A stretch of 64,000 nt of DNA from Deltaproteobacteria bacterium (GTDB lineage Bacteria > Desulfobacterota > Binatia > HRBIN30 > CADEER01): positions 186,001-250,000 of the forward strand of contig JAJCZJ010000020.1 of NCBI GenBank assembly GCA_029262455.1, written 5' to 3'. A program made the position numbers and the translations under genes. Of this stretch, positions 5,376 through 26,429 are shown in pieces (position 1 is the first letter of the stretch; each line of letters opens with the position of its first letter). The notes beneath the pieces are model-generated. The model was not told where the DNA came from and ran no database searches. It saw only the letters and a list, made by a program, of their open reading frames with translations.

Positions 5376-7205
5376 ATGCGCCATCTCAGCGTTCAAAGCC
5401 TCCTGGTCGCGCTGGCTTTGATCGTACCTCTCCCCCCCACGCTGGCCGGCGCAGCAACACCGCTGCAGTGCGAGCTCGAGGCCGCCAAAAGCTTGGCCAC
5501 TTGCGTTAAACGCGTCGTCTCGCAACACCGAAAGTGCTTCAATTCAATCTCACGAGCTTGCAGCGACGATGACGTAAGGATCGTTCGGCAGCTCGACAAG
5601 GTCTCGAACCGTCTCGCAGCTAAATGCGGATCAGACGCGAACGTTCAGCTTGCCGGCTTCACATCACTGACCCTGACCAGCCTCGATCAGAGAATCCGGG
5701 CCTCCTGTCTCGCCGAAGCGGATGCACTACTCGCGCGTTCCTTCGGCGGCCCGCACGCACCAACCTGGAGAACCGCGCCGCCGGAAAACAAGAAATGCAT
5801 GGACAGGGCCTTCGAACACGGCGCTAGACTAATGTGGGCGGCGAGTCGCACCAGAACCCGATGTATCGAGCGACAGCGAAAAACAGGCGCCTGTCGCTTG
5901 GATCGATCCCTCGCCCACCTATCGCGGCTCACATCGCGAACCAAAGATAGGATCGACGATGCTTGCGACCCCCTTTCGCTGCGCGACCTGATCGCAGTCG
6001 ATCCGACGAGCTTCGTCGATCGCGTCGACGCACAAGCCGAATGCATGACCGCCATCGCGCATCCTGATGTGGATCCACTGTCGCTCAACTGTGGCCCCCG
6101 CGACGCGATCACCGCACCTACCCGAGGCGAGTACTTGCGCATCGTTCTCGACGAAGCGGAATGGGGAACCCGCTGCGGCACAGGCAATCCGTATGCGTTT
6201 TGGATTCGATTAGCGCCGCCGGGCTTTCCGGTCGAAAATGTCGTCCTGCAAATGCAGGGCGGCGGGGCCTGCATCTTCGAGGACCAATGCAACAGCGTCA
6301 GTGCTGGGCTATTCAGCGCCACCGACAACAATCCCTCCTCCGGCGGCATCATGTCGAACAGTCCCACCGTGAGCCCGTTCGCCAACTGGACCAAAGTCTA
6401 TATGCCCTACTGCACACAAGACCTATTCATCGGCGGCGGCGGTACTAGCTCGTGGCCAAGCATTGACGTCGATCGCTGGGGCTCGATCAACCTGCGCGTC
6501 GCGCTGCGCTACCTGCGCGACGTCCTGTGGCGCGAGCTCGACAACGACAGCGACGGCTACATGCCGCACCGCATCAGGATGTTGTTTGGCGGCACTTCCG
6601 CCGGCGGCTTTGGCGCCCTCTACAATTACCACTACGTCCTGGACGACCTGCAGTGGGTACACTCCACCGCATGGGCCGACTCATCGTTGGCGCTCAGCAA
6701 CGGAGAGTTGATCGGCCTCGGGAGCCTGGGGCTGTTCATGTTCAGCGACAACACCAACGGCTGGAGGTCCCACAGCTACATGCCTCCCTACTGCAACCGG
6801 ATCAACTGCGGCATCGGCCCGGTGATCTATGCAACGTCGGCTCCGCGCCTCCTGCGTGAACCGGAACAACAGTTCCTCGTCGTGTCGAACCAAGTCGACA
6901 ACGTCCAGGTGAACACCAGCTTCTTCGACAGCACCGGGGAATGGATCAACGCCCTTCGGCAATCGTACTGCGACACCGCTGACACCAACGGCTTGCGCTA
7001 CTTCCTACCGGCAGCGACAGGCAGCAACCACACCATCGTCACCGACAACAGCGTATTCGCCGGAGCGCCAGTCGACGGCATCGAGATGCGAGATTGGCTC
7101 AACCTCGCCGTCTCCGACCCCGCCAACCTCACGGATGCAGTCGAGGAAGGCACCCTAGCGACGGCGATTTCAGGGGTCGCGCCCTTCCCTTGCGCCGTCG
7201 ACTGA
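5376..7205 (+). CDS. Secreted pectinacetylesterase/NOTUM-family hydrolase with two N-terminal four-Cys helical modules
   Basis: The C-terminal ~340 residues are a PAE/NOTUM-type alpha/beta hydrolase. MQGGGACIF is the oxyanion-hole region, the nucleophile is S408 in GGTSAGGFG, and the likely catalytic His is H552 in GSNHTIV. This family deacetylates pectin or, in NOTUM, removes lipid from proteins; the bacterial substrate is unknown. The start at 5376 (609 aa) is preferred over upstream ATGs at 5286 and 5340 because it begins a clean signal peptide (MRHLSVQSLLVALALIVPL, cleavage near AGA-A). Between signal and hydrolase, residues 32-84 and 141-197 carry two C-x21-C-x7/9-C-x21/23-C modules, rich in basic residues and predicted helical, each followed by a further Cys (C111, C223). 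They may be a binding or cell-surface module. Confidence 0.85.
   Translation: MRHLSVQSLLVALALIVPLPPTLAGAATPLQCELEAAKSLATCVKRVVSQHRKCFNSISRACSDDDVRIVRQLDKVSNRLAAKCGSDANVQLAGFTSLTLTSLDQRIRASCLAEADALLARSFGGPHAPTWRTAPPENKKCMDRAFEHGARLMWAASRTRTRCIERQRKTGACRLDRSLAHLSRLTSRTKDRIDDACDPLSLRDLIAVDPTSFVDRVDAQAECMTAIAHPDVDPLSLNCGPRDAITAPTRGEYLRIVLDEAEWGTRCGTGNPYAFWIRLAPPGFPVENVVLQMQGGGACIFEDQCNSVSAGLFSATDNNPSSGGIMSNSPTVSPFANWTKVYMPYCTQDLFIGGGGTSSWPSIDVDRWGSINLRVALRYLRDVLWRELDNDSDGYMPHRIRMLFGGTSAGGFGALYNYHYVLDDLQWVHSTAWADSSLALSNGELIGLGSLGLFMFSDNTNGWRSHSYMPPYCNRINCGIGPVIYATSAPRLLREPEQQFLVVSNQVDNVQVNTSFFDSTGEWINALRQSYCDTADTNGLRYFLPAATGSNHTIVTDNSVFAGAPVDGIEMRDWLNLAVSDPANLTDAVEEGTLATAISGVAPFPCAVD
5469..5627 (+). 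other. Four-cysteine helical module, copy 1 (inside the secreted esterase)
   Basis: Cys32, Cys54, Cys62 and Cys84 of the esterase give spacing C-x21-C-x7-C-x21-C. Cys54 lies in HRKCF and the last helix ends DKVSNRLAAKC. A fifth Cys follows at 111 in ASCLAEAD. Copies 2 and 3 are at 5796-5966 and 26130-26300. Confidence 0.6.
5796..5966 (+). other. Four-cysteine helical module, copy 2 (inside the secreted esterase)
   Basis: Cys141, Cys163, Cys173 and Cys197 give C-x21-C-x9-C-x23-C, identical in spacing to the copy at 26130-26300. Shared positions include R/K-C-I at the second Cys and a K/R-D-R/K-I-D pattern three to six residues before the last Cys (KDRIDDAC). A fifth Cys follows at 223. Confidence 0.6.
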
Positions 7206-7212
7206 TCGCAAC

Positions 7213-7236
7213 CTCGCCAGAGCACAACCTGGCGGG
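7213..7236. terminator. Small hairpin between convergent genes
   Basis: CGCCAG (7215-7220) pairs with CTGGCG (7229-7234) around an 8-nt loop, extended by a G-U pair and one C-G pair. It sits 8 nt after the esterase stop and 33 nt from the RTX gene stop, so it could end transcription from both sides. No T-run is present. Confidence 0.35.
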
Positions 7237-7269
7237 CGCGTCTCCGCGCTAGGAGGCTACCAATGGCGG

Positions 7270-10200
7270 CTATCGACGGAACCTGCGCCAGGCGATTCCG
7301 AGTAGGGCGAACAGTCCGGTCGCCAGACCGGTGATGGAGAGTGTCGGAGCCGGCGTGGTAAAGGGCTCACGGCATTCCCCTTCAGACGAAACGATGTTGC
7401 AGCTCTGGCCGCTGTCGCACATCGCAACGTTGCAGCAGACCCCGTCCGTACAGAATCCGCTGAGACATTCGGTGTCGAGGTCACACGTCTGGCCGAGCGT
7501 CTGCGGAATCGTTTCAAACTCGACCTGAACGACCCCGGGCGGGACCGTCCCGTCCGCAGTGATCAGTGTATCGCCAGGGGCAGCAGCAGGATCCCCGCCG
7601 CGTAGGTCCATCGAGGGTGTCCCCGTGGCGGCGCTGGCGTCGACCGTATCTCCCGGTTGGCCAGGCTCGTCACCCGCGTCGAGCACGATGTCCTCAACCT
7701 CCGTAAACGAGATTGGCTGATCGCCCGCACGTATGATCTGCGTATCGGCGACGGTATAGTTCTCCGCCGTAGCCGAGCCGTTGATCGTCAACAGATCACT
7801 TGCCGTGGGATCGCCTCCGGTGAAACTCATCGCAACTGGAACCGCGCCGGTGGGCAGGTTGACGGTAAAGATATCGTCGCCGTCATCCCCTAGGACGTCG
7901 ATCGTATTCAACTCGGTGACTCCCGTGAGGTCGTTCACAACAACGGTGTCCGCACCGTCGTCTCCTTCGAACATCCAAACTTCAATGTTTCTCGCGGTCA
8001 CAGTTGCCGCCTCCGTCGCTGCCACAGTGATCGTGAGGTCGGGAGCCTGCGAGTTGTCGAGCGTGTAGGAGCTGTCTCCAGGAGTGTCGCGCATCAGCAA
8101 CTTGTCAGATGCGCCGCCACCACCCCGCACTTCGTCGCTATCGTCGCCATCGTTCCAGAGAACCAGATCGCTGCCGGCACCGGCGGCGACCGTGTCGTCA
8201 CCGTCGCCACCGACCAGGGTGTCGTTACCGCCGTTACCGAGGAGCGAGTCGGTGCCGTCACCGCCGAGGATCGAGTCGGTATTACCGCCGCCGGCGATCG
8301 TGTCATTTCCCCCCTCGCCCATCAGGGTATCGGTGCCGCCGCCGCCGAGCAGAGAATCATCCTCGTCACCACCGAGGATGTTGTCGCTTGCCTCGGTGCC
8401 ACAAAGCGTGTCGTTCCCGGCGAGACCGACGAGAGTGTCACCGCCGCCACCACCTTCCAACGAGTCGTTGCCGGGCCCCCCGACCAGAGAATCGGATTGA
8501 TCACCACCACTCAGCGAATCATTGCCGCTCTCGCCGAGCAGCGTGTCATTTCCATCGCCGCCAACCAAGAGATCGTCCTCGTTGCCGCCTCGCAACTCGT
8601 CGTCACCGCCGCCGCCATCGAGCGAATCGGTCCCAGTTCCGCCAATCAGCAGATCCGCCTTCTCGAGTCCGAGCAGCGTATCGTTACCACCATCGGCGTC
8701 GAGGGTGTCGTTCCCGTCACCGCCGATGAGCAGGTCGTCGTTGGCATCACCCATCACAGAGTCGTCGCCATCACCGCCATCGAGCGTGTCGTTGCCGGCG
8801 AAACCGAGCAAAGTGTCAGCCCCGCCGCTGCCGAAAACGCTGTCATCGGCGGGGCCGGCATCGATGAAGTCCGCACCCGGACCACCGATGATGGTGTCAT
8901 TATTGTTTCCGCCGACCAGCGTGTCTCGACCTCCAGCGCCGACCATTGAGTCGTCGCCGTTGCCGCCAAGCAGTGAGTCGTCGTTCTCAGTCCCGCACAA
9001 CGTATCGTTGTTGTTGTTACCGAACAGCGTGTCGCCACCACCACCGCCTTCGAGCGAGTCATTGCCGTTGCCACCGTCGATCGAGTCGGCGCTATCCCCG
9101 CCAAATAGCGTATCATTGTGGTCGCCGCCGAGCAGCGTGTCGTTGCCGCCTCCCCCGATGAGAGAATCGTCATCGAGGCCACCGTTGATGAAGTCGTCGT
9201 TGCTACTACCTGAGATCGTGTCGTCGCCCTCGTCGCCGAGCAGGGTATCATTGCCTCCGCCGCCGATGATCGAGTCGTTGCCAAGGCCGCCATCGGCATC
9301 GTCGTCGGCAGCAGTGCCGCAAAGGGTATCGTTGCCGCCAAGTCCGGCGAGGGTATCGCCTCCGCCGCCGCCCTCTAGCGAGTCGTTGCCACCACCGCCA
9401 TCGAGCGAATCGCTGGCATCGCCGCCGTAGAGAGAATCGTTGCCAAAATCACCAAGCAAGGTGTCGCGATTGTCACCGCCGGCAAGGCTATCGTCGTTGG
9501 CCTGTCCATCGAGAACATCGGCACCTCCGCCACCCAGCAGCGTGTCGTTGCCGCTGCCGCCGACCAGGCTGTCATCGTTGTCCCCGCCGTCGAGCACGTC
9601 ATCGCCACCGCCACCAGCCAACGTGTCGTCGCCTCCACCACCGATCAGGCTGTCCGGCTGATTGCCACCATCGATCGAATCGTTGCCACCATCGCCGAAG
9701 AGCGTGTCGTTGCCGTTGCCTCCAAGCATGGAATCGCCAGAAGAGCCCCCAACCAACGAGTCGTTGTTGTTGCCACCGACTAGGGTGTCATTGCCGCCGG
9801 ATCCGAGCACCAAGTCATTGCCATTGTCGCCGACCAGGCTGTCATCGTTGCCGGTCCCACACAGTGTATCGTCACCCGACCCACCGATCAGTGTATCGCC
9901 ACCGCCGTCGCCCATGAGCGAATCATTGGCCGCACCACCCACTAGACTGTCGGCGCCAGCGCCACCGTTGATGGTGACGCCACTCGCGGCCACCGTCATT
10001 AGGGAGGCGTCGACGACATCGCCGCGATTCTCAGCGTTGACCGTGAGAGCCAGAGGGCCGGTACACGTGACGGTATTGGTTCCTCCGCCTACGCACGCAC
10101 CAGCTCCGGGGCCCGCAAGCGCGATCGTCTCCGCGGCGTCGGTTAGGAAGAATCCACTTCCGTTCGGCGTGATCGCAATGACGTTGGTGACGTTGTTCGC

Positions 10201-10527
10201 CGCGACGTAGTTGGCGTTGCCGGCACCGTCGAGGGTCAAGGTCGCGGCAAAGGCCGCGCCGCCGGGCGTCGCGAGGCAAATTGCGATGGCCAAAGCCGCC
10301 AACTCTCGCAGGGCGCGCTTGGGGAGCCGATGGGGCAGACGACGACGCAGGGAACGCTCGACGCGTGTCCGCAGCCGCTTCAGCAGATCTCGGCTGCCGG
10401 CTGCCTGCGGGGAACGAAAGTGCGGATCACGATCCAGGACGTCGCGCGTAGCGTCGATCGCCAGCCGCAACTCATCGCTATCCCGGTCAAATCCCCTGCT
10501 GCCCAACACACCATCACAATCAGCCAT
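7270..10527 (-). CDS. RTX (haemolysin-type Ca2+-binding) repeat protein with extended signal region and C-terminal membrane anchor
   Basis: This is a 1085-aa exported protein. The ATG at 10527 is preceded by GGAGGT at good spacing. The first ~70 residues form a charged extension ending in a basic stretch (SLRRRLPHRLPKR); a Sec h-region follows at ~75-87 with cleavage near AAFA-A (~94). Residues ~190-790 are tandem GGxGxDxL nonapeptides that fold as a Ca2+-loaded beta-roll. Residues ~800-1015 are a non-repeat domain. Residues ~1017-1052 are a Cys-rich stalk (ten Cys, including VCCNVAMC), and the last 25 residues are a hydrophobic helix followed by RRFRR after PAPT. This end looks like a PEP-CTERM/MYXO-CTERM type sorting signal, and type I secretion is less likely given the N-terminal signal. 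Probable surface adhesin or matrix protein; function unknown. Confidence 0.88.
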   Translation of the reverse strand: MADCDGVLGSRGFDRDSDELRLAIDATRDVLDRDPHFRSPQAAGSRDLLKRLRTRVERSLRRRLPHRLPKRALRELAALAIAICLATPGGAAFAATLTLDGAGNANYVAANNVTNVIAITPNGSGFFLTDAAETIALAGPGAGACVGGGTNTVTCTGPLALTVNAENRGDVVDASLMTVAASGVTINGGAGADSLVGGAANDSLMGDGGGDTLIGGSGDDTLCGTGNDDSLVGDNGNDLVLGSGGNDTLVGGNNNDSLVGGSSGDSMLGGNGNDTLFGDGGNDSIDGGNQPDSLIGGGGDDTLAGGGGDDVLDGGDNDDSLVGGSGNDTLLGGGGADVLDGQANDDSLAGGDNRDTLLGDFGNDSLYGGDASDSLDGGGGNDSLEGGGGGDTLAGLGGNDTLCGTAADDDADGGLGNDSIIGGGGNDTLLGDEGDDTISGSSNDDFINGGLDDDSLIGGGGNDTLLGGDHNDTLFGGDSADSIDGGNGNDSLEGGGGGDTLFGNNNNDTLCGTENDDSLLGGNGDDSMVGAGGRDTLVGGNNNDTIIGGPGADFIDAGPADDSVFGSGGADTLLGFAGNDTLDGGDGDDSVMGDANDDLLIGGDGNDTLDADGGNDTLLGLEKADLLIGGTGTDSLDGGGGDDELRGGNEDDLLVGGDGNDTLLGESGNDSLSGGDQSDSLVGGPGNDSLEGGGGGDTLVGLAGNDTLCGTEASDNILGGDEDDSLLGGGGTDTLMGEGGNDTIAGGGNTDSILGGDGTDSLLGNGGNDTLVGGDGDDTVAAGAGSDLVLWNDGDDSDEVRGGGGASDKLLMRDTPGDSSYTLDNSQAPDLTITVAATEAATVTARNIEVWMFEGDDGADTVVVNDLTGVTELNTIDVLGDDGDDIFTVNLPTGAVPVAMSFTGGDPTASDLLTINGSATAENYTVADTQIIRAGDQPISFTEVEDIVLDAGDEPGQPGDTVDASAATGTPSMDLRGGDPAAAPGDTLITADGTVPPGVVQVEFETIPQTLGQTCDLDTECLSGFCTDGVCCNVAMCDSGQSCNIVSSEGECREPFTTPAPTLSITGLATGLFALLGIAWRRFRR
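8165..9960 (-). repeat. Tandem RTX nonapeptide-coding repeats
   Basis: About 1.8 kb of degenerate 27-bp units encodes GGxGxDxLxG repeats, with recurrent longer blocks of the type GGNDSLEGGGGGDTL followed by LCGT(E/A). Repeats of larger period (several nonapeptides ending in DTLCGT) recur around 8400, 9000, 9320 and 9860, which points to growth by duplication of multi-repeat blocks. Confidence 0.85.
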
Positions 10528-10572
10528 CGTAGCACCTCCGCACCAGTCCGTCGCGAATTCACAAACCCGTGG

Positions 10573-10600
10573 AATATAGCGGTTTTTGTGTCAACGTCAA
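10573..10600 (-). promoter_or_regulatory. Sigma-70-type promoter for the RTX gene
   Basis: Read on the minus strand, TTGACG (10600-10595), a 16-nt spacer and TATATT (10578-10573) lie about 45 nt upstream of the start codon. This is the clearest -35/-10 pair I found in the window, and the surrounding DNA is visibly more AT-rich than its neighbours. Confidence 0.5.
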
Positions 10601-10636
10601 AACCCGATTTCTGGGATACAGGGGGTTCGGGAAAGT

Positions 10637-11776
10637 TCAGGAAGCCAGCACCTGCTCGTACGCTGTCCGGGTGGCAGCAGCGGCGTGCTGCCATGTATAG
10701 TGCCGGCGCAGCCGCTCGCGCAGAGCTTGCCTACGCCGCTGCGCAGCTTCCGTACCAAAGGCCGAAAGTGCGTGCTCAACCTGGGTCCGGATCGAGTCGC
10801 TGTCGGCCGGGTCACAGTAGAGCGCCAAATCCTGGTAAAACTCGAGCTCATACCCGGCGATACTGACCACCACCTCGCAGTCGGCCAGCGCAGCCTCCAT
10901 CGTGACCAAGCCACAGGTTTCGATCCAGCTGGGCAAGGCGTGTACGCGAGCAGCAGCGTAGGCCGATCGCAGCTCATCGTGTGAGATGTGGTCGAGTATG
11001 ACCAGTTGCCTGGGTCCGTAGCGCCGGCACCACTCGAGGTAGCGCTCCTGCAGATGACCACCGACCAAGACGAGAGGGACGTCGAGGTCGCGCATGGCCA
11101 GCGCCAGCATGAGCTGGTTCTTCGAGAGCTCGATACGGCCAACCTCGATGACGAAATTCTCGATGCCGTATCGGTCAATGAATGGTTGCGGGTCGGCCTC
11201 GGCAAAGACCTCGGCTTCGGCGGCGTACGGGATCACGCTAAACGGCTTGCCGGAAACCGCGAGCGTCTTGGCGAGACGGTCCATCTCCATGTAGCTGTTC
11301 GGCAGCAGTCGATCGACCTGCGCGACGATGCGGCGCTGCGCCTCGTCGTAGTTGGACCGAGGCCGGTTGCGCCGAGACGCTGTCCAGGTCGCCCCATCGG
11401 CGCGCTTGATCTCGAGCTCGCGGCGGCGGAACTGCGCCAGCAGTGACTCGAGCTCGGTCGGTGTGCGTTCTTGCGAGAAAATCATCTCCATAACCCGCGT
11501 ACCCCACAAAGCCGTGGAGGGGTCGAGGTAGATCGGGGAGAGCACGACCGGAATTCCGGAGCTGCGCAACGAAGCTACCTGCCGGGCGGTCACGTCGATG
11601 GTGCGCAAATTGAAGACATGGGCGATATCGAAGCCCCGCGTGTCGGGCTCGATGTCGAAACACTCGCTCACATCGAGCCCGTCTTCCCGCAAGACCCTTG
11701 CGGTTTCGCGCATCTGCGTGAGATCGCCGCCGCGAAATCGCTGCGACGCCGGAGTGTTGACCATCAGAACCTTCAC
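10637..11776 (-). CDS. Glycosyltransferase family 4 (GT-B fold)
   Basis: This is a 379-aa cytoplasmic GT-B enzyme that transfers sugars from nucleotide-sugar donors. The N-terminal acceptor domain begins MKVLMVNTPASQRFRGGD, with the glycine-rich start typical of GT4. The C-terminal donor half has FVIEVGRIELSKNQLMLALA (domain start), LVLVGG, and SWIETCGLVTMEAAL, the E-x7-E region that holds the nucleotide sugar. The start overlaps the stop of the upstream GT4 by 4 nt (ATGA), so the two are made together. A role in surface polysaccharide or glycan synthesis is inferred from this pairing. Donor and acceptor cannot be told from sequence. Confidence 0.88.
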   Translation of the reverse strand: MKVLMVNTPASQRFRGGDLTQMRETARVLREDGLDVSECFDIEPDTRGFDIAHVFNLRTIDVTARQVASLRSSGIPVVLSPIYLDPSTALWGTRVMEMIFSQERTPTELESLLAQFRRRELEIKRADGATWTASRRNRPRSNYDEAQRRIVAQVDRLLPNSYMEMDRLAKTLAVSGKPFSVIPYAAEAEVFAEADPQPFIDRYGIENFVIEVGRIELSKNQLMLALAMRDLDVPLVLVGGHLQERYLEWCRRYGPRQLVILDHISHDELRSAYAAARVHALPSWIETCGLVTMEAALADCEVVVSIAGYELEFYQDLALYCDPADSDSIRTQVEHALSAFGTEAAQRRRQALRERLRRHYTWQHAAAATRTAYEQVLAS

Positions 11777-12996
11777 GACTTGCCGCCCAAACCCGCCGCG
11801 ACTTCCTCGTAGAAGTCGGCGATCTGAGGGAACATGATGTCGCTGCTGTAGCTCTCGGCGATCGTCGCGGCGGCCTTCGCCCCCAGACGGCGCCGCAGTT
11901 GAGGGTCGCTCAATAGATCAAGAGCGGATCCCGCAAGGCCATCGACATCAAAGAAGTCGACGAGCAAGCCGTTGCTGCCATGGGCAATCACGTCGCGCAC
12001 CGGAGCGGTATCGGACGCCAAGATCGCGCAACCGCAGGCCATCGCATCCATCAAGGACCAACTGAGTACGAACGGTACGGTCAGGTAAACGTGAAGATCG
12101 CTGAGGCTCAGCAATTTGGCGAGGGTTTTCGGGCGCAACCGACCGAGAAATAGAATGCGGTCGAGGTCGTAGTCGTCTTGCGCCAGCACGTGGGCCTTGA
12201 AGCTTTTGCCGTCGATGTGCTTCTCGTCACCACCGTAGGCTATGCGATCCTCGCCGACGACGGCGAACAGAACATCCGGATCCCGGTCACAGATCTTCTT
12301 CGCGGCACGCATGAAGATGTCGAATCCGCGCATGCTCTCGAAGCCGCGCGAAACGTAGGTAATCAGTTTCGTACCAGGACCGAATCGGTGTTCCCCAACG
12401 CGCCGCTCGAGACCATCGTGCCGGAACCAAACGTCAGTCGGAATTCCATCATGCAAGACGCGGACTTTATCGCGGAACTCCGACGGCAGCACGCTCCTCT
12501 GAAACGGCGTCGGTGCGTAGCCGGCATCACAGTGCTCGAGATCGAGCAAGATCATCGCGTTGCGTGCGCGGCTGCGCAGGCGGTCGCGTTCGGCAACCGG
12601 AAAGTCGGCGCGGAAGTCGAGATCGCTGTTGTCCGGGCGGTAGTAGTATTCGAAGTAGTTGATCAGGCCCGCGTTCTTGAAACGGTCGCGCAGAAACAGC
12701 GTTGTCCCAAAGCCGGAGTGTCCGACGATGAGGTCGGGCGGGTCGCCATCAAGAGCGACCGCCGCCTGCCGGACAGCCTCGGCGTTCCAGATGCCGTTCT
12801 CGAACGTCCGCGAATAGTAGTGAGTTGCCTCGGTTGCGCCGCCCTTGGCCTTGTAATGCAACTTGCGGATGCCGGCCGTAACGGCCTCCGGAGTCTCGGA
12901 GAGAAAGGAGCAACGATGGCCGCGCTCCGAGATCAGTCGCGCCGCGATGTGGCCGAACTGAGCGGGGAAGTTCTTGTGAACGAAAAGAACGTGCAC
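11773..12996 (-). CDS. Glycosyltransferase family 4 with N-terminal Glyco_trans_4_3-like domain
   Basis: This is a 407-aa GT-B enzyme. The N-terminus MHVLFVHKNFPAQFGHIAARL is characteristic of a GT4 subgroup that lacks the common GxGG start but keeps the PAQFGH motif. The donor half contains ITYVSRGFESMRGFDIFMRA, FVVGEDR-like and LFLGRL segments, VLSWSLMDAMACGCAILASD (the sugar-nucleotide site with its acidic residue) and a C-terminal closing helix. It is the first gene of a two-gene unit with the GT4 at 10637-11776 (4-nt overlap), which points to two successive glycosyl additions on the same glycan. Confidence 0.88.
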   Translation of the reverse strand: MHVLFVHKNFPAQFGHIAARLISERGHRCSFLSETPEAVTAGIRKLHYKAKGGATEATHYYSRTFENGIWNAEAVRQAAVALDGDPPDLIVGHSGFGTTLFLRDRFKNAGLINYFEYYYRPDNSDLDFRADFPVAERDRLRSRARNAMILLDLEHCDAGYAPTPFQRSVLPSEFRDKVRVLHDGIPTDVWFRHDGLERRVGEHRFGPGTKLITYVSRGFESMRGFDIFMRAAKKICDRDPDVLFAVVGEDRIAYGGDEKHIDGKSFKAHVLAQDDYDLDRILFLGRLRPKTLAKLLSLSDLHVYLTVPFVLSWSLMDAMACGCAILASDTAPVRDVIAHGSNGLLVDFFDVDGLAGSALDLLSDPQLRRRLGAKAAATIAESYSSDIMFPQIADFYEEVAAGLGGKS

Positions 12997-13104
12997 GATC
13001 GCTCCACTAAGACCGAGAGGGTCCCGCTAAAAAGGACGCTACAACAAGAAGATGTCGCACATACCCCGCCCCCCTACCCTGTCCCGCAAAACCGGAAGTC
13101 GCTC

Positions 13105-13386
13105 TCAAAGGAACTCACACAGGTACGCCACCGGAACCTCGGCGCGGACGTCGAATCCGCTGGCTGCCTCGACTTCGAACGCTGTTCCCGCCGGGTAGAA
13201 GCGCCACTCGCTACTTCTGGCGAAGCGAACGCCCACTTCTCCGCTCACCACCGTCATACGCTCCGCGCCTTCGGTATCGAAATGGAACTCCCCGGCATCG
13301 ATTACGCCGATCGTATGACGGCGCCCCCTGCGCTCGAACCCGAGGCTCTGAACGCCACCCTCAAAGTACGTGTTGTGATTCAGCAT
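13105..13386 (-). CDS. ppnP: Pyrimidine/purine nucleoside phosphorylase PpnP (YaiE/DUF1255)
   Basis: This is a 93-aa cupin that splits nucleosides with phosphate into base and ribose-1-phosphate. It matches the whole family: N-terminal NTYFEGGVQSLGFE, then GVIDAGEFHFDTEGAERMTVVSGE, the W-R-F-Y-PAGTAFEVEA turn and the C-terminal AYLCEFL. Its length equals E. coli PpnP (94). It is not in an operon with a nucleoside gene here, but a nucleoside hydrolase lies at 40.2 kb. Confidence 0.93.
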   Translation of the reverse strand: MLNHNTYFEGGVQSLGFERRGRRHTIGVIDAGEFHFDTEGAERMTVVSGEVGVRFARSSEWRFYPAGTAFEVEAASGFDVRAEVPVAYLCEFL

Positions 13387-13582
13387 GAAGGGCGTTGTAG
13401 TCGAGGAACTCGGCGGAACGCAATCGCACGGAGATCCTCACGGTCGAGATGCCAAGTCCGTACAGGTCCGCATTCCGGCCGAACACCAATCGAAGGTCCC
13501 GGTCGGTGCATGCCCAACACCCATGCGGCCCCCCTCCCGACTGCGGTTGCGACCCGCGGCGAGCTTCGATAGGCCCTAGGAT

Positions 13583-17116: not shown

Positions 17117-17128
17117 GCAATCTCCGTA

Positions 17129-17980: not shown

Positions 17981-18028
17981 GCATCGATTGCAATCGGCGC
18001 AAGAGCTGCAGCCGCCGGTAGCTGCTCG

Positions 18029-18985: not shown

Positions 18986-19022
18986 TTTTCATACCACCCG
19001 GTTCCGGCTTCACGGCCGCACT

Positions 19023-19853
19023 TCAGGCCGGCAATTTCGTGCGCAAGTCGCGCGGGTAGGCGTTGATCCAAATATCCAGTTTGCCGCCGAGCTCGGGACG
19101 TTGCCGGTTCTCGGCGATCCCCTGCTTCGCCCAATCGGCCCACATGCCCCAAGGCGGCAGGAAGAAGTATCCTCCGCGCAGACCTCCAATGGCAACGTAG
19201 CACTTCTGAACGACGCAGACCGCGGTCAGGGCACAGATGAGCGCAGCCACCTGGTCGCGCTCGCGACATGTGTCGAACGCCGTCCATAGGTCATCGTCCG
19301 GCCAGTCTAGACGTTCGCGGAGTGCGACCAGCCGCTTTCCTTCCACACACTTTTCCAAAAGCCAGGAAAACTTCTCGCCGCGGCTTAGCGAAGGCCGCTT
19401 GGAGAAAACGTCATCACCGATCATGACGCTCAAAAACACCGCCGGTGACGCCTCGACCACCGAGGCGTTCGGAATGACATGCGGAAAGCGGAGCAGCTCA
19501 CGCGAAGTCGTGACATGCTTCAATACCTGCCCCAAACACTCACCTGCCGTATCGCGCAATGCCCGGCCGTTGCCCGCTGCGCCGCTCGCCGGTGGCTTGC
19601 AACGCTTCTGAAAGATCCCCAAAGAGAAGGTCCGTTCGACCCCCCGGGTCGAGGTCTCCAGAAATCCTGGGCCAACCACCGGCCCACCCAGTGCGATCAC
19701 GTCGCAGCGCCGAGGAAGGACCCGCCCACGCACCTCTCGGTCACTGTCGCTGGTTACGCGAGATACCAGAAACCTGACATCCCGCGTACGACAGAGGCCG
19801 ACCGACTTTCCGGACCGACTGACCCCGACATCCACTCCAGCCACCACCGTCAC
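19023..19853 (-). CDS. DUF429 family protein (predicted RNase H-fold nuclease)
   Basis: This is a 276-aa protein whose N-terminus VVAGVDVGVSRSGKSVGLC is the first beta-hairpin of an RNase H-like fold, with Asp in G-V-D-V-G. Further family blocks are DVIALGGPVVGPGFL (usually D-x-P at this place, here GGPVVGP), GVERTFSLGIF and the C-terminal FDTCRERDQVAALICALTA, where E-x-D-x-x-D/A acidic residues normally complete the site. The second acidic position is replaced (ALGGP for the usual IDAP), so catalytic competence is doubtful. Its biological role is unknown in all organisms I can recall. On its upstream side lies a secreted-protein remnant (19987-20222). Confidence 0.75.
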   Translation of the reverse strand: MTVVAGVDVGVSRSGKSVGLCRTRDVRFLVSRVTSDSDREVRGRVLPRRCDVIALGGPVVGPGFLETSTRGVERTFSLGIFQKRCKPPASGAAGNGRALRDTAGECLGQVLKHVTTSRELLRFPHVIPNASVVEASPAVFLSVMIGDDVFSKRPSLSRGEKFSWLLEKCVEGKRLVALRERLDWPDDDLWTAFDTCRERDQVAALICALTAVCVVQKCYVAIGGLRGGYFFLPPWGMWADWAKQGIAENRQRPELGGKLDIWINAYPRDLRTKLPA

Positions 19854-19986
19854 AGTGCTCGGTGCCTTCCTGGAAGTTGCGGTCGAACCATTCCCAACGA
19901 TCTCCCCGTTTGATCAAGATCTCGGATCGAACTCTAGCAATAGAACGCGACAGACCAAAGCCGAAGATCAAGTCTCCCAAAACGGA

Positions 19987-20222
19987 TCAGGCGCGCCGGA
20001 GCCGGAGCATGACGACCAGCGATCCTGCCGCAAGCCGCAGGATCGAGCGCGCCCCCGGGGCCGGAGCCGGTACTGGTTCGATCACAGCAGCAAAGCCAGG
20101 GCCTCCGATGTCGAAGATCTCTCCGTCCACCGCCGTGTCGTCACCCACCTCGCCATTGGTGAGGTGGAACTTCGCCATGCCGACGGCTGAGTCGAAGGGC
20201 AGAGCGTCAAAGGAAATCGGCC
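19987..20222 (-). pseudogene. C-terminal remnant of a choice-of-anchor (U-type) secreted protein with C-terminal sorting signal
   Basis: Directly behind the stop of the TPR-sulfatase gene a frame opens that reads PISFDALPFDSAVGMAKF, then HLTNGEVGDDTAVDGEI and FDIGGPGFA. This matches, as I know the family, the end of 'choice-of-anchor U' domains (LTDGGLGDD...VDGxIxDPGGPA). A Pro/Ala linker (EPVPAPAPG) and a short hydrophobic helix ending RLRRA follow, the layout of a PEP-CTERM-like sorting tail. Only ~78 residues exist: no matching N-terminus can sit upstream because the sulfatase CDS occupies it in another frame. An internal ATG at 20178 would allow a 63-aa product without a signal peptide, which makes no sense for such a tail. 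I read it as a truncated relic. Confidence 0.5.
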
Positions 20223-22673
20223 CTATTCTCGTTCGAGCAGCGGGCCGAAGTCGGCGTCTTGGGTGAAACGGTTGCGAAGTTCGTCACCACCGAGCTGGAG
20301 TGCCTTGTCGAGGTGCTCTTTGGCAACGGTTTCCCGGCCGGCTTTCAGCTCGACCCGGGCCAAGCGCAGCCACCAGGCGGCACTGTCCGGGTCGGCCTCC
20401 GCCACCTTGCGGAGAAGGTCGATCGCCTCATCGTAGCGCCCGGTTTCGATATAGCCCAGAGCCAGGTTGTTGTAGACGACACCCTGGGTCGGATTGAGCT
20501 CGAGGGCTCGCTGCAGCAGCTTGATTGCCTCGTCGTAGCGCTTTTCGCGCAGCAACAAGGTTCCGAGGTTGTAGTGCGCCTCGAAGTGTTTATCGGTGAG
20601 TTCGATGACGCGGCGATATGTGGTGATCGCGCGCCTCGTCTCCTTTTTTCGGTCGAAGTAACTGCCGAGGTTATTGAGGGCGGCGACGTGGTCGGGCTCC
20701 GATTCCAGGGCTCTGCGATAGAGGGCGAGCGCCTCGTCTTCGTTACCCTGCCCCTCGCGAATGACGCCAAGGTTGTACAGTGCATCGGCATTGCGCATGT
20801 CGATCTCCAGGGCGCGTTCGAGGGCGGCGGCGGCGTCCGTGTCCCGATTGTCCCGGTGATACGTATTGCTGAGGCCGATCAATGCCTTCACGTAGAGCGG
20901 GTCGCGGCGCAGCGCTTCTTCGTACCACTCGATCGCCTTCTCGGAGTTGCCGGACTCCTGGAAGAGCTCCGCGAACTCATTGGCCAGCTCCGGCGCACTG
21001 CGGTCGTGTTGGAGCGCCTGCTTGAGCAGATCGAAGGCCGTCACATAGTCGGCCTCGCGGCGGTGGATTCGCGCCAGCGCAATACGGCCTTGGTTGCGTC
21101 GTGGGTCGAGGGCAATGACGGTCTCGTATTGCTTCTTGGCTTCTTCGGTCTGCCCCTGCGACTGCAGAGCATTGCCGAGCGAGCTGTGGGCCATGACGTT
21201 GCCCGGGTCTTTCTCCAACACCGAGCGCAGGGCGGGGATGGCCTTGTCGAGTTCACGCGTGCGCATCAGGTTCTGTGCCGTTTGGAACTCTTCCCACAGG
21301 ACGATCTTATCCTTGGGGTCTGGCAAATCTCCTTCGACCCGTTCGCCACGGTCGTCGATGGCGTAGCCGAGAGCGGCGAGTCGCTCTCGCTCGACGGCGG
21401 TGAGCTCGCGCCGCGAACCTTCCAACGAACCGGTGCGCATCACGTCGGACGACAAATACTCGTCGAGCTTTGTCGACAGGCTTCCCGCTTCCGACGGCTT
21501 TTCCGCAAACAGGTTCTCGGTCTCACCGGGGTCTTTTGCGACATCGTAGAGCTCTTGTCGCGGGGCCCGGATGTACTTGTGGTCCGACCGGCGCACGCCG
21601 CGCAGCTCGGCCCAGCCGTTGTTGAAGTACGGCACCAGCGTCTCGACGTAAATGTCGCGCTCGGGAGCGTTGCTGCTGTTCATGAAGCCGACGAGGGATT
21701 GTCCGTCGAGGCCGTCGGGCACCGGGATACCGACCAGGTCGAGCGTCGTCGGCAGGATGTCCACCGTCGTGACCTGGCCGGCAACGCGTTTTCCGGCCGG
21801 AAGCGCGGGGTGCCGCATGATCAGGGGCACGCGCAGAGTGGCGTCGTAGAGCAACAAGGAGTGCGTCTTCTCGCCGTGCTCGCCGAGACTTTCGCCGTGG
21901 TCGGAGGTCAGGATGATCAAGGTGTCGTCGAGATGGCGCAGGCTGCGCAGTCCGTCGATGACACGTCCGACCTGGGCGTCGACGCCGGCGATCTCACCTT
22001 CGTACGGCTGGCCGTCGTAGAGGACGTCGAACGGCGGCGGCGGCTGGTAGTTGGCGTGCGGATCGAAATAGTGCAACCACAGGAAGAAGCGCTCGTCCTT
22101 GTTTTTCGCGAGCCAGGCGAGTCCTTGATCGGTCACGGTGCGACCCGGGCGCTCGTCGAACATGAACATCGGTGCGTCTTTGCCGCCGTGCAGGTTGTCG
22201 TCGTAACTCTGAAAGCCCTGGTCTAATCCGAACTTGGAGTCGAGAACGAAGGCTCCGATCACAGCTCCGGTGTTGAAGTCGTGGTTGCGCAGGATTTCGG
22301 CCATGGTTTCGACTTGGCGCGGTACTTGGAACGTGCCGTTGTTGCGAACGCCGTGATGGATTGGGTAGAGGCCGCTCAAGATCGAGGTATGGCTGGGCAG
22401 AGTGAGCGGTACCGGCGTGATGGCCGTTTCGAAGAGTACGCCTTTGGCAGCCATCGCATCGATGTTCGGAGTCTCGATATCCTCGTAGCCATAGGCGTGG
22501 ATCCGATCCGCCCGCGTCGTGTCGAGGGTGATGACGACGACATTGCGAATGTTCGCGCGGTCGACGCCGTCATCGCCAGATCGGCAGCCAAAGAATATGC
22601 CGAAAGCCGAGACGTAGAACGCCCACGTGTAGAGCGCGGCTCGCCGCCAAGTCGGAATTCGGTACGAGGGCAC
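20223..22673 (-). CDS. Alkaline-phosphatase/sulfatase-fold protein with C-terminal TPR array
   Basis: This is an 816-aa envelope protein. The N-terminal ~30 residues form a hydrophobic signal ending in FFGC, possibly a lipoprotein. Residues ~42-430 are a sulfatase-fold domain: ITLDTTRADRIHAYGY, the nucleophile region T91-L-P-S-H95, DPHANYQPPPPF, and the metal pair in TSDHGESLGEHGEKTH. Thr takes the place of the Cys/Ser that becomes formylglycine in true sulfatases, as in phosphoethanolamine or glycerophosphate transferases. Residues ~480-800 hold about nine TPR units (for example ALYNLGVIREGQGNEDEALA). RERLAALGYAIDD joins the halves. It lies 10 nt downstream of the gene at 22684-23214. A transferase or phosphohydrolase role on envelope glycans is my inference. 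Confidence 0.85.
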   Translation of the reverse strand: MPSYRIPTWRRAALYTWAFYVSAFGIFFGCRSGDDGVDRANIRNVVVITLDTTRADRIHAYGYEDIETPNIDAMAAKGVLFETAITPVPLTLPSHTSILSGLYPIHHGVRNNGTFQVPRQVETMAEILRNHDFNTGAVIGAFVLDSKFGLDQGFQSYDDNLHGGKDAPMFMFDERPGRTVTDQGLAWLAKNKDERFFLWLHYFDPHANYQPPPPFDVLYDGQPYEGEIAGVDAQVGRVIDGLRSLRHLDDTLIILTSDHGESLGEHGEKTHSLLLYDATLRVPLIMRHPALPAGKRVAGQVTTVDILPTTLDLVGIPVPDGLDGQSLVGFMNSSNAPERDIYVETLVPYFNNGWAELRGVRRSDHKYIRAPRQELYDVAKDPGETENLFAEKPSEAGSLSTKLDEYLSSDVMRTGSLEGSRRELTAVERERLAALGYAIDDRGERVEGDLPDPKDKIVLWEEFQTAQNLMRTRELDKAIPALRSVLEKDPGNVMAHSSLGNALQSQGQTEEAKKQYETVIALDPRRNQGRIALARIHRREADYVTAFDLLKQALQHDRSAPELANEFAELFQESGNSEKAIEWYEEALRRDPLYVKALIGLSNTYHRDNRDTDAAAALERALEIDMRNADALYNLGVIREGQGNEDEALALYRRALESEPDHVAALNNLGSYFDRKKETRRAITTYRRVIELTDKHFEAHYNLGTLLLREKRYDEAIKLLQRALELNPTQGVVYNNLALGYIETGRYDEAIDLLRKVAEADPDSAAWWLRLARVELKAGRETVAKEHLDKALQLGGDELRNRFTQDADFGPLLERE

Positions 22674-22683
22674 GAGCTAGCTT

Positions 22684-23214
22684 CTATGGACCGGCGAGAA
22701 AACCGACGTAGCCGGCGCCAGGACCTTCGACGACAAGCTCTCGAGCACATCGCCATCCCGGTGCGATGGGAGCTCCGTTTGGCGGGGTGGCGCTGCGCAC
22801 GCCGTCACACTCCACCCTGGTCGCCGACCAAACGGCGGTCACGACGACGACCTGGCCCGCGGGCGGCTGCAGTCTCAGCGTGCACGACTTACCCGTTGAG
22901 CAAGATTCACCCGCCGGCGCACCGCTGCTGAGCGCGGTCGAGGGCAAGGTTCGCACGTCGACAGTGCGCACCCGCGACTCCTTGTCACCGCGTTCGCCGC
23001 GACGCTTGTCGCGTTTCGCATGCCGCTCTGCCCGGATCGCCTCTTGTTCGGCCACCGGCAGCTTGAGGAACTCTTCACGTCGCTTCAACGCCTCTTCGCG
23101 GCGCTCCGCCACCCAGGTCTTTCGCGCCTCGGGCTCGCGCGGCGGCGAATCCTCAGCGACGGCGTTCGTCGCGAGGACCGCAGTGAGCAGAGAGCAGATC
23201 AGCCAATATCGCAT
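22684..23214 (-). CDS. Exported hypothetical protein: charged helix plus Cys-containing beta domain
   Basis: I chose the ATG at 23214: GGAGG lies 9 nt upstream and it opens a signal peptide (MRYWLICSLLTAVLATNAVAE). The mature 156 residues begin with a strongly charged helical segment (ERREEALKRREEFLKLP, then AERHAKRDKRRGERGDK), reminiscent of DUF3106-like periplasmic proteins, followed by a ~90-residue beta-rich domain with four Cys (ESCSTGKSCTLRL, VECDGV, WRCAREL). No known family is recognised. Same strand and 10 nt from the TPR-sulfatase gene, so the two are probably cotranscribed and act in the same compartment. Confidence 0.7.
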   Translation of the reverse strand: MRYWLICSLLTAVLATNAVAEDSPPREPEARKTWVAERREEALKRREEFLKLPVAEQEAIRAERHAKRDKRRGERGDKESRVRTVDVRTLPSTALSSGAPAGESCSTGKSCTLRLQPPAGQVVVVTAVWSATRVECDGVRSATPPNGAPIAPGWRCARELVVEGPGAGYVGFLAGP

Positions 23215-23330
23215 TATCACAAACCTCCAGGGCCCGGACTTATGGCACAATCCCCGAGCCGCTTCACACCCACCTACATGCCGCGACACGTCAAGCGAGG
23301 CATCCCCGCGTGAGATAGGCCCCCGTGTCG

Positions 23331-25136
23331 TTAGAAGGGCGCGGGTCCTCTTAAAACACATTCCCCGCGCTCCGAGACCGCCACCACTTCGTACAATCCG
23401 TAGCCCCCCTGCCGAAACACCGGCCGCAAATAGCTTGCCTGGAAGTCGATCCAGCTGCGGCGCTCGTCTTCATCGAGATTCTCCTTTAAGAATCGTACGA
23501 GCAGCTGCTCTGATGCCGCGATGTGAGTGACGCCTTCACTGCGCAACGTCCGGGCTACGCCGCAGCCATCGGCTGCGCCCAAGGCGGCGCGCAAACGCAC
23601 ACCCGAAGCGTAATAAATCTGATCGTAGACGAAAGGCGTTTCCCAATAGTACGAACGGTCTCCGAGAAACACATGGTAAGTGAGCGAGGTCGGCCCCAGA
23701 TTGGCGTTGGCATACTGCACGACGGGATATTCCGGAACGTATCGATGGATGAATTCCTCCCGCGTCCTCGTACCATTCAACAAAGCCAACGGGTCGACCT
23801 CGCGCCAGTACAGCGCGAAATGCGCGACATTGAAGAGCAGCGCCGCCACGCACAACGCCGCCACAATCGGAATGCCGGACTGGCGCTGCATCCTCGCAAG
23901 CGCCTCCACCGTGAGAATCGTCAGCGGGATCAGGATCACCACGAGATAGCGGGCGGCGAAATCGTGCGAGAAGAAGACTGCCGGCAAGAATATCGCCGCG
24001 ATCAACGCAAAGACACCGTCGCGTCGCGTCGCTTCACGGCGCAGTGCTCCGGCAAAGCCGAGTAGGTACAGCGGATTGAACACGCCGTCGAAGCGCTGCA
24101 TGTCGCCTTCTTTGCCGGTGATGAAGATGCGGATCGGGCTGAGTGCGATCTCGAGCCAGCTTTCTCCATACTGCCAACGCCGGCGACTCAGCGGGTCGAG
24201 TCGCGCCATTTCGTGAAACGAGCTGCCACCGAAGATCTCACCGAAAAAAGGAAACACCGGGTTGCCGGTCAGCATCCAATTCTTGACTAGCCACGGTAGA
24301 GCTGGGATCGCGGCGAAGCCGGCAAACACAACCGCAGAGCGCAGCGCCGGCTTGAGGCCGGAAGGCGCCGCCAAGAGGGTCACGCCGAGGGTCATGAAAG
24401 CAACCACCATGAGTCCGCTGTACTTCACGCCGACCACACACCCAGCGGCCAGCCCGGCGAGGATGAGCCACCGGAGGCGGTCGTTCTCGTGCCACCGCTG
24501 CACTGCGAAAAACGCGACGGCGGCGTAGAACAGAACCGCCAGGTCCACGTAGGCGCGCGTCGCCAGGATCGCCACCGTAGGCGTCGTGAGCAAAAGCACG
24601 GCCCCTGTTGCCGCGGCGCGCAAACCTACACTCCACGTCAGCATGCGAAAGACGAGCGCAACCGACGCGAGCCCATACAGCATGTGCAAGAGTTTGGTGG
24701 AGGTCGCGCTGCCGATAGCGAGCAGCGGCATGAACTGCAGCTCGAGCAGCATCGGGAAGTAGGAATACGCAATGCCCAACGATTCCTTGAAAATCCCCTC
24801 GCGCGAGAAGAGTTGAGGCATCGCAAGGTGGTAGGTTAGCTCATCGCGCGCCACTGGCGGCACCAAGCTGAGGACGACGAGCGCGGCGACGTACGCAAGC
24901 AAGACGAGAGCTAGCCCCCACCCAATACGGTCGCGGTGATTCCAAGTGCGGAACCCGACGAGCGTAACCGCGACCAACACCAAAGCCGCGAGCCCGGGAA
25001 TCACCAAGGCGATCGGAGAACCGACAAGAAGACCGACCCGGGCCGCAAAAAGGTCCGCTTCGGTAAGCAGCGCAACCGCGACCGAACACCAAAGGAGCAC
25101 CTCCAGGGCTGCTCCCCGATCCTGCGTTTCGGTCAT
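23331..25136 (-). CDS. Multi-pass membrane glycosyltransferase, GT-C fold (GT39/ArnT-like)
   Basis: This is a 601-aa protein with about 11-12 hydrophobic segments through residue ~430 and a soluble C-terminal part of ~170 residues. The first periplasmic loop carries ARDELTYHLAMPQLF, the D-E motif of GT-C enzymes that use polyprenyl-phosphate sugars, and SYFPMLLELQFMPLLA follows, typical of the GT39/PMT-like group. It would transfer a sugar from a lipid carrier to a lipid or protein acceptor on the periplasmic side. It heads a minus-strand run with the exported protein at 22684 and the TPR-sulfatase at 20223; the 116-bp gap after it allows separate promoters. Confidence 0.85.
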   Translation of the reverse strand: MTETQDRGAALEVLLWCSVAVALLTEADLFAARVGLLVGSPIALVIPGLAALVLVAVTLVGFRTWNHRDRIGWGLALVLLAYVAALVVLSLVPPVARDELTYHLAMPQLFSREGIFKESLGIAYSYFPMLLELQFMPLLAIGSATSTKLLHMLYGLASVALVFRMLTWSVGLRAAATGAVLLLTTPTVAILATRAYVDLAVLFYAAVAFFAVQRWHENDRLRWLILAGLAAGCVVGVKYSGLMVVAFMTLGVTLLAAPSGLKPALRSAVVFAGFAAIPALPWLVKNWMLTGNPVFPFFGEIFGGSSFHEMARLDPLSRRRWQYGESWLEIALSPIRIFITGKEGDMQRFDGVFNPLYLLGFAGALRREATRRDGVFALIAAIFLPAVFFSHDFAARYLVVILIPLTILTVEALARMQRQSGIPIVAALCVAALLFNVAHFALYWREVDPLALLNGTRTREEFIHRYVPEYPVVQYANANLGPTSLTYHVFLGDRSYYWETPFVYDQIYYASGVRLRAALGAADGCGVARTLRSEGVTHIAASEQLLVRFLKENLDEDERRSWIDFQASYLRPVFRQGGYGLYEVVAVSERGECVLRGPAPF

Positions 25137-25445
25137 TGCCGGTAGGCCTACCGGGATTGAGCGAAAGCGTCAATTGTCAGATGGCGGATGCCTGGGACAC
25201 AGTCCCTGCCTGCCAACCGCCGCGCCCCGAAGCGAGATCGGCACCTGCCGCTGTCGCGAAGCTGTCCAATTTTACAAGTGCAAACTCAATCAAGGCAACA
25301 CATTGACAGTCAAAGAGTCCTCATGGTAGCGCCGTAAGCATAGACGAGAGCGAGAGTTCGTTCTTCGCCGTCGACATCGCAACGCGACCTAGAACATCCA
25401 ACGCAGCCGGTTTGGGCTCGCCCCGACCGGATGAAAGGGGGAATC
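25137..25445. other. Intergenic region between divergent genes
   Basis: This is 309 bp between the GT-C gene (minus) and the secreted Cys-rich gene (plus). It should hold two promoters. A TTGACA at 25303-25308 lacks a good -10 partner, and on the minus strand TTGCCT followed after 18 nt by TAAAAT (25293-25264) is a weak candidate for the GT-C gene. AAAGGGGGAATC just before 25446 is a good ribosome binding site. I see no RNA gene or repeat. Confidence 0.4.
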
Positions 25446-26429
25446 ATGACACGCCCGAGCACAAGTGCGGCAATTCTCACGGCCTTGATGTTGAGTGCAC
25501 CAGCATTGGCTGACCCGCCACCACCGCCATCGCTTCCGACGACGTGCCCTACGGTTCAGTGCATGCGCGTCAACAGCGTCATCGACAATTTCGACGGAAC
25601 ATTCGATGTCGAATTCGAAACGTTCAACTGGTTCGACACCAATCCAGATACCGGCGTGAATCGTTTGATGATGTTTACCGGCAACTTCTTCAACAAGATT
25701 TGTATCGGTGGCAGCAACCCGGGCGACCGCCAGGTGGAAGTGATCGGTGCGTCGGCACCCGCTGGATGGACACTCGTCCGGGCCGACAACACCGTGGTGG
25801 TGTTTGAAACCACCTCGACAGCGTTTGAAATCCCAGAGCTCGACCTTTGCGACGCAAGCGTGATCGGAGGATGCATCAATGGGGGTGGTCCCGGAATATC
25901 GACCTGCGGCAATGAGCAGGGAGGTTTCGTTATCACTCTGAAGCCTAACATCCCGACCGGTAGCATTTGTTCTTGGACGGCCAACTGGCGCCATCTCGAC
26001 GAGTTCGGCTTGGACAACGGTGACGTCATGAACTTCGGATCCGTATCCTGGACCTTCGGTTCGCTCATCGAGGATTACTCCAACGTCGGCTACCCACCGG
26101 CCTCGTTCGGCGAGAGCGGCGTCGACAAATGCGCCCGGCTGGTTCAGAAAAAAGCGATCAACTACGCGCGCGCCCGGCTCAAACAGACGGCAAAGTGCAT
26201 CGACTCAATCAACAAAGGCAAAGTCTGCGATACCGTCAAGCGCGATCAAAAAATCAACAAAGCGAAAACGAAGATGGAAGATAAGATCGACCAGTTTTGC
26301 CTCACAGACGAGCAGGTCGCCAACATTGCCTGGTGTGGCACGACCATCGCCGGCTTGAAGACTTGCCTCGATGACGAAATCGTTTCCACAACCGACGCCG
26401 CAATCGCCGCAATGTACGGCCCACAGTGA
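25446..26429 (+). CDS. Secreted protein of unknown function with a C-terminal four-Cys helical module
   Basis: The start at 25446 has a purine-rich RBS and opens a signal peptide (MTRPSTSAAILTALMLSAPA, cleavage near ALA-D); an ATG at 25431 is also in frame. Of 327 residues, ~35-215 form a beta-rich domain with scattered Cys (for example CINGGGPGISTCGNEQGGFV) that I cannot assign. Residues 229-285 carry C-x21-C-x9-C-x23-C with a fifth Cys at 307; the spacing is identical to the second module of the esterase at 5376-7205. It is convergent with the RND pump, only 4 nt apart. Probably an extracellular or periplasmic structural or binding protein. Confidence 0.8.
   Translation: MTRPSTSAAILTALMLSAPALADPPPPPSLPTTCPTVQCMRVNSVIDNFDGTFDVEFETFNWFDTNPDTGVNRLMMFTGNFFNKICIGGSNPGDRQVEVIGASAPAGWTLVRADNTVVVFETTSTAFEIPELDLCDASVIGGCINGGGPGISTCGNEQGGFVITLKPNIPTGSICSWTANWRHLDEFGLDNGDVMNFGSVSWTFGSLIEDYSNVGYPPASFGESGVDKCARLVQKKAINYARARLKQTAKCIDSINKGKVCDTVKRDQKINKAKTKMEDKIDQFCLTDEQVANIAWCGTTIAGLKTCLDDEIVSTTDAAIAAMYGPQ
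26130..26300 (+). other. Four-cysteine helical module, copy 3
   Basis: Cys229, Cys251, Cys261 and Cys285 of the secreted protein give C-x21-C-x9-C-x23-C, the same spacing as the copy at 5796-5966. The helices are rich in Lys/Arg (KKAINYARARLKQTAKC; KTKMEDKIDQFC), and there is no CxxCH haem site. A fifth Cys follows in GLKTCLDDE. Confidence 0.6.

Follow-up and report, generated by a model that had tools for sequence, protein, structure and literature searches.

Here, we present an analysis of a cysteine-rich helical module found in two exported proteins encoded in a 64,000-nucleotide stretch of DNA (the window; positions 186,001 to 250,000 of contig JAJCZJ010000020.1) from an uncultured bacterium of the class Binatia. 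The two proteins are P0001, a pectin-acetylesterase/Notum-like esterase with two N-terminal copies of the module (units 1 and 2), and P0002, which carries a single copy at its C-terminus. We establish the presence, homology, copy number and partner diversity of this module. Based on sequence comparisons, the modules of P0001 and P0002 are homologous beyond their similar cysteine spacing; based on structure prediction, the module is a three-helix fold of ~95-107 residues; and the family to which it belongs is apparently large and undescribed. Defining this family would name and delimit a sizeable share of the exported proteins in an uncultured lineage, with at least 32 module-bearing open reading frames (ORFs) in one genome. 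We suggest that the most likely role of the module is to retain its partner at the cell envelope, which is the least sure part of our reading.

A first-pass annotation of the window had claimed three four-cysteine patterns. Counting residues, all three are exactly as claimed: C32-x21-C54-x7-C62-x21-C84 in unit 1 (window positions 5469-5627), C141-x21-C163-x9-C173-x23-C197 in unit 2 (5796-5966) and C229-x21-C251-x9-C261-x23-C285 in the P0002 module (26130-26300), with the 21/9/23 spacing identical in the last two. All cysteine positions listed in that annotation are correct; however, C43 in unit 1 was overlooked, as was C297, which lies between Cys4 and the "fifth" cysteine of P0002. When the residues of each protein were shuffled 20000 times, the exact 21/9/23 spacing arose in 10 shuffles for P0001 and in 11 for P0002, and a loose version in 1051 and 1024, respectively; because ~5% of shuffles show the loose pattern, loose spacing alone is weak evidence. 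Among the 411 ORFs of the window, the P0002 module was matched by profiles of esterase unit 2 (E = 3e-9), esterase unit 1 (E = 2e-6) and type B, one of the forms of the module described below (E = 2e-7). The unit 1 and unit 2 profiles were built from 45 rows each with P0002 left out, and the type B profile from eight rows with the window sequences left out. For each of the three profiles, none of 1000 shuffles of the P0002 module in which the cysteines were kept fixed reached the true score. Moreover, the unit 1 profile scored 22.2 bits over 99 residues at the C-terminus of P0002 versus 8.9 bits for the core alone, arguing that helix 3 is part of the shared unit. The idea that the shared spacing is a coincidence between unrelated helical cysteine-rich regions could draw on the frequency of the loose pattern and on the weak similarity of esterase units 1 and 2 to each other (unit 2 profile on unit 1, i-E 0.45), which weighs against homology. 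However, the profile matches to the P0002 module, including a match of the type B profile at 4.8e-5 genome-wide, together with the cysteine-preserving shuffles, led us to reject chance spacing, and we consider coincidence scarcely credible.

The AlphaFold2 model of the esterase (25-row alignment) has a mean predicted local distance difference test (pLDDT) score of 90.8 (block means between 85 and 98 for residues 31-230), and that of the P0002 module (17-row alignment) has a mean of 90.3; in the latter alignment, rows beyond P0002 reach the hairpin only, and helix 3 of P0002 was predicted without aligned rows. In both models, each unit contains three long helices in the same order. Helix 1 bears Cys1 in its first turns and Cys2 close to its end; Cys3 falls in the turn, and Cys4 is located where helix 2 ends or just past it. 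Helices 1 and 2 would run antiparallel as a hairpin, with Cys1-Cys4 closing the open end and Cys2-Cys3 the turn; helix 3 would follow the hairpin and may bear further disulfides. The first-pass annotation had proposed such a hairpin and had named structure prediction as a check. The predicted helices and cysteine places in both proteins, together with a few co-losses of cysteines, agree with the proposal; however, it missed the third helix, and in the predicted structures the unit is not a two-helix hairpin. A Foldseek comparison of the P0002 module with the PDB gave no match at E <= 0.001 (best E 1.6), and neither did a viral structure library at the same threshold. In a VIA comparison, the best Z of the P0002 module was 7.7, a value that common helical arrangements also reach and that is not meaningful for a helical bundle.

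The first ten cysteines of the esterase are almost invariant in a 47-row alignment, and a few rows deviate. The few co-losses are consistent with pairs C32-C84, C43-C111 and, by remainder, C54-C62 in unit 1. C32 and C84 are lost together in locus L157 (L and G numbers denote loci and genomes), C43 and C111 are lost together in the L141 protein and, after realignment by eye, in L169, and Cys2 and Cys3 are lost together in unit 1 of L016 and in the second tandem unit of L029. The extra helix-1 cysteine of unit 1, C43, probably pairs with the "fifth" cysteine, C111, on helix 3. C223 of unit 2 is absent in L136-L139 and lost alone in L128. An early statistic for the co-loss of Cys2 and Cys3 in type B (Fisher p = 5.5e-6) was discarded: four rows had been counted as "both lost", but on inspection L016 unit 1 alone had simply lost the two cysteines, the remaining rows having both at shifted positions or being P0002 itself. 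Several points weigh against the fold and this pairing: L140 and L142 lost C43 but kept C111 (realigned by eye), the second tandem unit of L075 lost Cys2 but kept Cys3, and the five P0002 models span pLDDT 77.6 to 90.3. The proposed pairing derives from predicted helix places, conservation and a handful of co-losses.

Profile searches, which the first-pass annotation had set as a further check, indeed retrieved additional homologues. With the P0002 module as the query, ten places in the genome matched at E <= 10, P0002 itself included, and two profile searches returned 21 and 23 places when E <= 1 was allowed. Successive searches yielded at least 32 distinct ORFs carrying the module at E <= 0.001 (10 + 4 + 16 + 2); because a limited number of candidates was scored in each genome, copy numbers are lower bounds. 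The genome also encodes three further esterase paralogues (C50:67633, C53:78716 and C90:7641), of which two are lipoprotein-like and have acidic modules. The module occurs in three forms. In type A, to which the P0002 module and esterase unit 2 belong, Cys1-x21-Cys2 is constant in 11 seeds, followed by a loop of x9 to x23 and then x22 to x24 to Cys4; in esterase homologues, the loop is as short as x4. The second form is a tandem pair ~245 residues long with a cysteine-rich tail, and the third, type B, has a typical spacing of C-x13-C-x19-C-x18..21-C. The Cys3-Cys4 distance across forms is ~x18 to x26. Thus, the 21/9/23 pattern of unit 2 and P0002 is one variant among several. Besides the cysteines, few core positions are invariant across the type A seeds. 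We join types A and B because the type B profile matches P0002 in the genome-wide search mentioned above; this link, as far as sequences indicate, would run through P0002. Speaking against it, direct profile-profile comparison of type B is weak, with a probability of 36% versus the type A seeds and 2.7% versus the tandem form.

The partner domains are diverse. Among 61 type B proteins, 30 contain Lcl_C; PETase-like and metallo-beta-lactamase folds occur in two proteins each; and GH16, choice-of-anchor I, alkyl sulfatase dimerisation, F5/8 type C and pentapeptide repeats occur in one protein each. In the tandem/type A set, for which 58 of the 59 gathered non-esterase proteins were scanned, DUF4215 is present in 18 of 58, and beta-helix, MAM, DUF1800, GH19 and CBM_2 domains are also found. 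Because many ORFs are cut at locus ends, partner domains are undercounted. By a simple rule, a signal-like hydrophobic segment is present near the N-terminus in 109 of 143 ORFs. These data bear out the first-pass proposal of a mobile module of the export compartment: it can stand at either terminus or inside a protein, alone or in several copies, and is combined with many unrelated domains.

Type B was detected in 49 of 145 genomes of the class and the tandem form in 47 (51 for the union of both), while the N-terminal part of the esterase was matched in 28 of 145. In a sample of the phylum, type A was found in 7 of 297 genomes (six of them of the same class) and type B in 8 of 297 (five of the same class); outside the class, the type B module in G132 is convincing by eye. 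The matches in G136, G026 and G185 look like chance, a judgment made by eye on G136 and G026. Among named genomes, the esterase was found at 29 loci, four of which match part of the catalytic domain only. Sequences of L147 and L148 recur in G349, which belongs to the same genus as the genome of the window. Other genomes of the class (L150-L153) are placed under Myxococcota in the tree labels. Of 235 genomes from the phylum to which L164 (Myxococcales SG8_38) belongs, 5 gave type A matches, one of them 14. None of eight esterase-bearing genomes reached via other loci matched type B in a scan that had no positive control. The lineage would have multiplied the module and joined it by shuffling to dozens of surface proteins and exported enzymes.

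A net positive charge was calculated for the hairpin cores of 69 of 70 type B modules and of 40 of 43 and 42 of 43 tandem units. When the module was compared with downstream windows of equal size, it exceeded at least 95% of them in positive charge in 81 of the 94 non-esterase proteins that could be tested. The esterase module pairs span a net charge from +17 to -21. In 36 esterase rows (the 47 rows minus three without N-terminus, one duplicate and seven without the esterase motif; the duplicate pair L165/L131 was retained, so 35 of the 36 are different), the module pair is net negative in all 16 rows with a lipobox and net positive in all 20 rows (19 distinct) without one. The same split is evident within the window's own genome, which has two esterases of each kind. 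The first, narrower lipobox rule and row filter had assigned 9 of 27 rows to the lipobox group, versus 16 of 36 with the widened rule and corrected filter.

The module would thus be an accessory domain, stabilised by oxidation, through which the partner protein stays at the cell envelope; this would happen mainly by binding of the cationic hairpin to anionic surface polymers or lipids, and copies on lipid-anchored esterases would have lost their positive charge. Envelope retention is suggested by the charge pattern together with the alpha-hairpinins, in which, according to the available text of PMC7191063, a cluster of positive residues is needed to contact negatively charged carbohydrates or polymers of fungal walls. 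Several observations weigh against this reading. The net charge over the whole best hit is zero or below in 42 of 118 non-lipobox, non-esterase proteins, and positive charge is therefore a property of the hairpin cores; moreover, the hairpin-core figures are uncontrolled for helix content. The broader lipobox rule was adopted once the first run had been seen, and under the strict rule 8 of 28 "non-lipobox" esterase rows are negative. The esterase charge pattern amounts to three changes on the tree, two of which are on well-supported branches, and an independent-pairs test is unable to reach significance; because of these few changes, the association between lipobox and charge is suggestive only. 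The catalytic domain is likewise more acidic in lipobox copies. In the non-esterase set, the lipobox is too rare to test (3 of 121, two of the three being chance-like by eye). Altogether, a disulfide-stapled three-helix family on exported proteins that acts in envelope retention mainly via a cationic hairpin is a reading that, in our judgment, could equally prove right or wrong. More tentatively, and with the chances tilted clearly against it, we speculate that the cationic stapled block replaces a lipid anchor, that the modules turn acidic when the enzyme gains a lipobox, and that shuffling has placed the block on dozens of exported proteins in each genome. This charge-for-lipid pattern is a testable idea of how exported proteins stay on the cell.

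Other roles have to be weighed against envelope retention. The module could act as a spacer that passively stabilises its protein, the oxidised helices shielding protein ends from proteolysis and distancing the partner from the surface without binding a ligand. Its free position and repeat number, the paucity of invariant core residues other than the cysteines in type A seeds, and the wide charge range of the esterase module pairs would all suit a spacer, which, however, has no need for consistently positive hairpin cores or for modules more positive than the sequence downstream; we regard this role as possible but rather improbable. Partners such as GH16, GH19, CBM_2, pectin-acetylesterase-like and PETase-like hydrolases bring to mind a substrate-binding domain that, like a carbohydrate-binding module, brings hydrolases to polymers outside the cell. 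Yet the same module is present on very different enzymes and the commonest type B partner, Lcl_C, is no hydrolase, and we consider this role unlikely. Finally, the N-terminal pair might serve the esterase specifically, as a pro-domain, a folding aid or a lid, given that 11 esterase rows show no variation in the first ten cysteines or in R121, G125 and P126 of the linker. However, the module pair is present without an esterase motif in L136-L142, and C-terminal single modules are found in P0002 and following GH16. Because the module is confined neither to the esterase nor to one position, we think it very unlikely that the pair serves the esterase in this manner. Envelope retention via the cationic hairpin remains the role that we favor.

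The catalytic part of P0001 belongs to the pectin acetylesterase/Notum family: it matches PF03283 over residues 255-537 (E=2.3e-12, 47.2 bits with a cut-off of 26.6), contains the G-x-S-A-G motif and has the Notum fold (residues 251-597 versus Drosophila Notum 4uzk by VIA: Z 33.7, root mean square deviation 2.7 over 309 residues, 21% identity). S408, D508 and H552, which we take to be the catalytic triad, are invariant in 11 esterase rows. Both matches leave the N-terminal module pair uncovered, and the VIA comparison of the whole esterase covered residues 250-597 only, with the pair outside. In other genomes of the class (L136-L139 and L141), an esterase-type module pair that lacks C223 precedes a different large domain without the esterase motif. 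Upstream of the esterase gene are genes for a PadR-type regulator (3063-3704) and, following it, an RPE65-like carotenoid oxygenase (3566-5164, + strand; PF03055, E 6e-112); the convergent gene at 7270-10527 (- strand) encodes a protein with 23 stretches of RTX calcium-binding repeats. The P0002 gene adjoins one for an MMPL-type transporter with a C-terminal cyclic-nucleotide-binding domain (26434-29199, - strand). Elsewhere in the window, a single ORF (20223-22673, - strand) encodes a sulfatase domain followed by many tetratricopeptide repeats. The coordinates of the features are listed in Table 1.

Table 1. Features of the two module-bearing genes (window positions)
Feature	Position	Strand	Basis
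P0001 gene; 609 aa, pectin-acetylesterase/Notum-like esterase, exported, two N-terminal modules	5376..7205	+	Translation, PF03283, Notum fold
P0001 signal peptide region (~residues 1-27), without lipobox	5376..5456	+	Sequence; pLDDT <50 at residues 1-23; lipobox pattern not found
P0001 module unit 1 (residues 28-126); predicted helices 29-58, 67-84, 100-123; C32, C43, C54, C62, C84, C111	5457..5753	+	Cysteine count, model, 47-row alignment
P0001 module unit 2 (residues 136-230); predicted helices 136-170, 175-197, 210-228; C141, C163, C173, C197, C223	5781..6065	+	Cysteine count, model
P0001 catalytic domain (residues 250-600), pectin-acetylesterase/Notum fold; G-x-S-A-G at 406-410	6123..7175	+	PF03283, alignment, Notum fold
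P0002 gene; 327 aa, exported	25446..26429	+	Translation
P0002 N-terminal region (residues 24-220); contains cysteines, without family match	25515..26105	+	Family searches
P0002 module (residues 221-327); predicted helices at module positions 5-36, 43-64, 81-104; C229, C251, C261, C285, C297, C307	26106..26426	+	Model m9e268f3212eb, profile matches, shuffles

The first-pass annotation knew of no named family that fits the module, and in our Pfam and NCBIfam scans we saw none covering it either. These scans gave only weak matches below the cut-offs over the module (P0002: DUF7943, E 0.16, and NF008915, E 0.028; L016: DUF5799, E 0.2); matches to PHROGs were weak as well (best E 0.023), and the family names found among the 61 type B and 58 tandem/type A members were read as partner domains (for one scan, among the best 25 of 68 families). 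DUF7943 (PF25639), which aligns weakly with residues 233-309 of P0002, was rejected as the family, its score of 12.2 bits comparing with a cut-off of 27; its only match in the genome is the P0002 module at 13.4 bits. The Cys-rich acidic repeat/DUF4215 (TIGR02232, PF13948) is likewise a small cysteine-rich unit and accompanies the module in the tandem/type A proteins noted above; however, its spacing is of the kind x10/x10/x3, and in L013, L014 and L016 it lies outside the modules. As the annotation had claimed, both translations lack a CxxCH haem site, which separates them from multihaem cytochromes. We found no description of the module in the open-licence literature as judged by titles and abstract openings, and the available part of the Binatota genome paper (PMC8262859) makes no mention of the terms looked for.

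Disulfide-bonded helical hairpins are known from two other groups of proteins. In CHCH/twin CX9C proteins, as far as the text of PMC12114033 at hand describes them, a helical hairpin is likewise bonded by nested disulfides, exemplified by Cys45-Cys76 and Cys55-Cys66 in CHCHD1; however, these proteins have CX9C in each helix and depend on MIA40 for import into mitochondria, whereas the module has x21 (type A) or x13 (type B) between Cys1 and Cys2, ~x18 to x26 between Cys3 and Cys4, and a signal peptide. Plant alpha-hairpinins, compared by their description in the available text of PMC7191063, are antiparallel helical hairpins with Cys1-Cys4 and Cys2-Cys3 disulfides and occur singly or in long cassettes. 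The predicted helices and cysteine places of the module fit this scheme. Alpha-hairpinins are, however, short plant peptides of two helices with one CxxxC motif in each, while the module has spacings of 21/9/23 and variants thereof, a third helix, and a place within exported multidomain proteins of bacteria. Because disulfide-stapled helical hairpins are known elsewhere, we regard the module as a new form of a known kind of structure.

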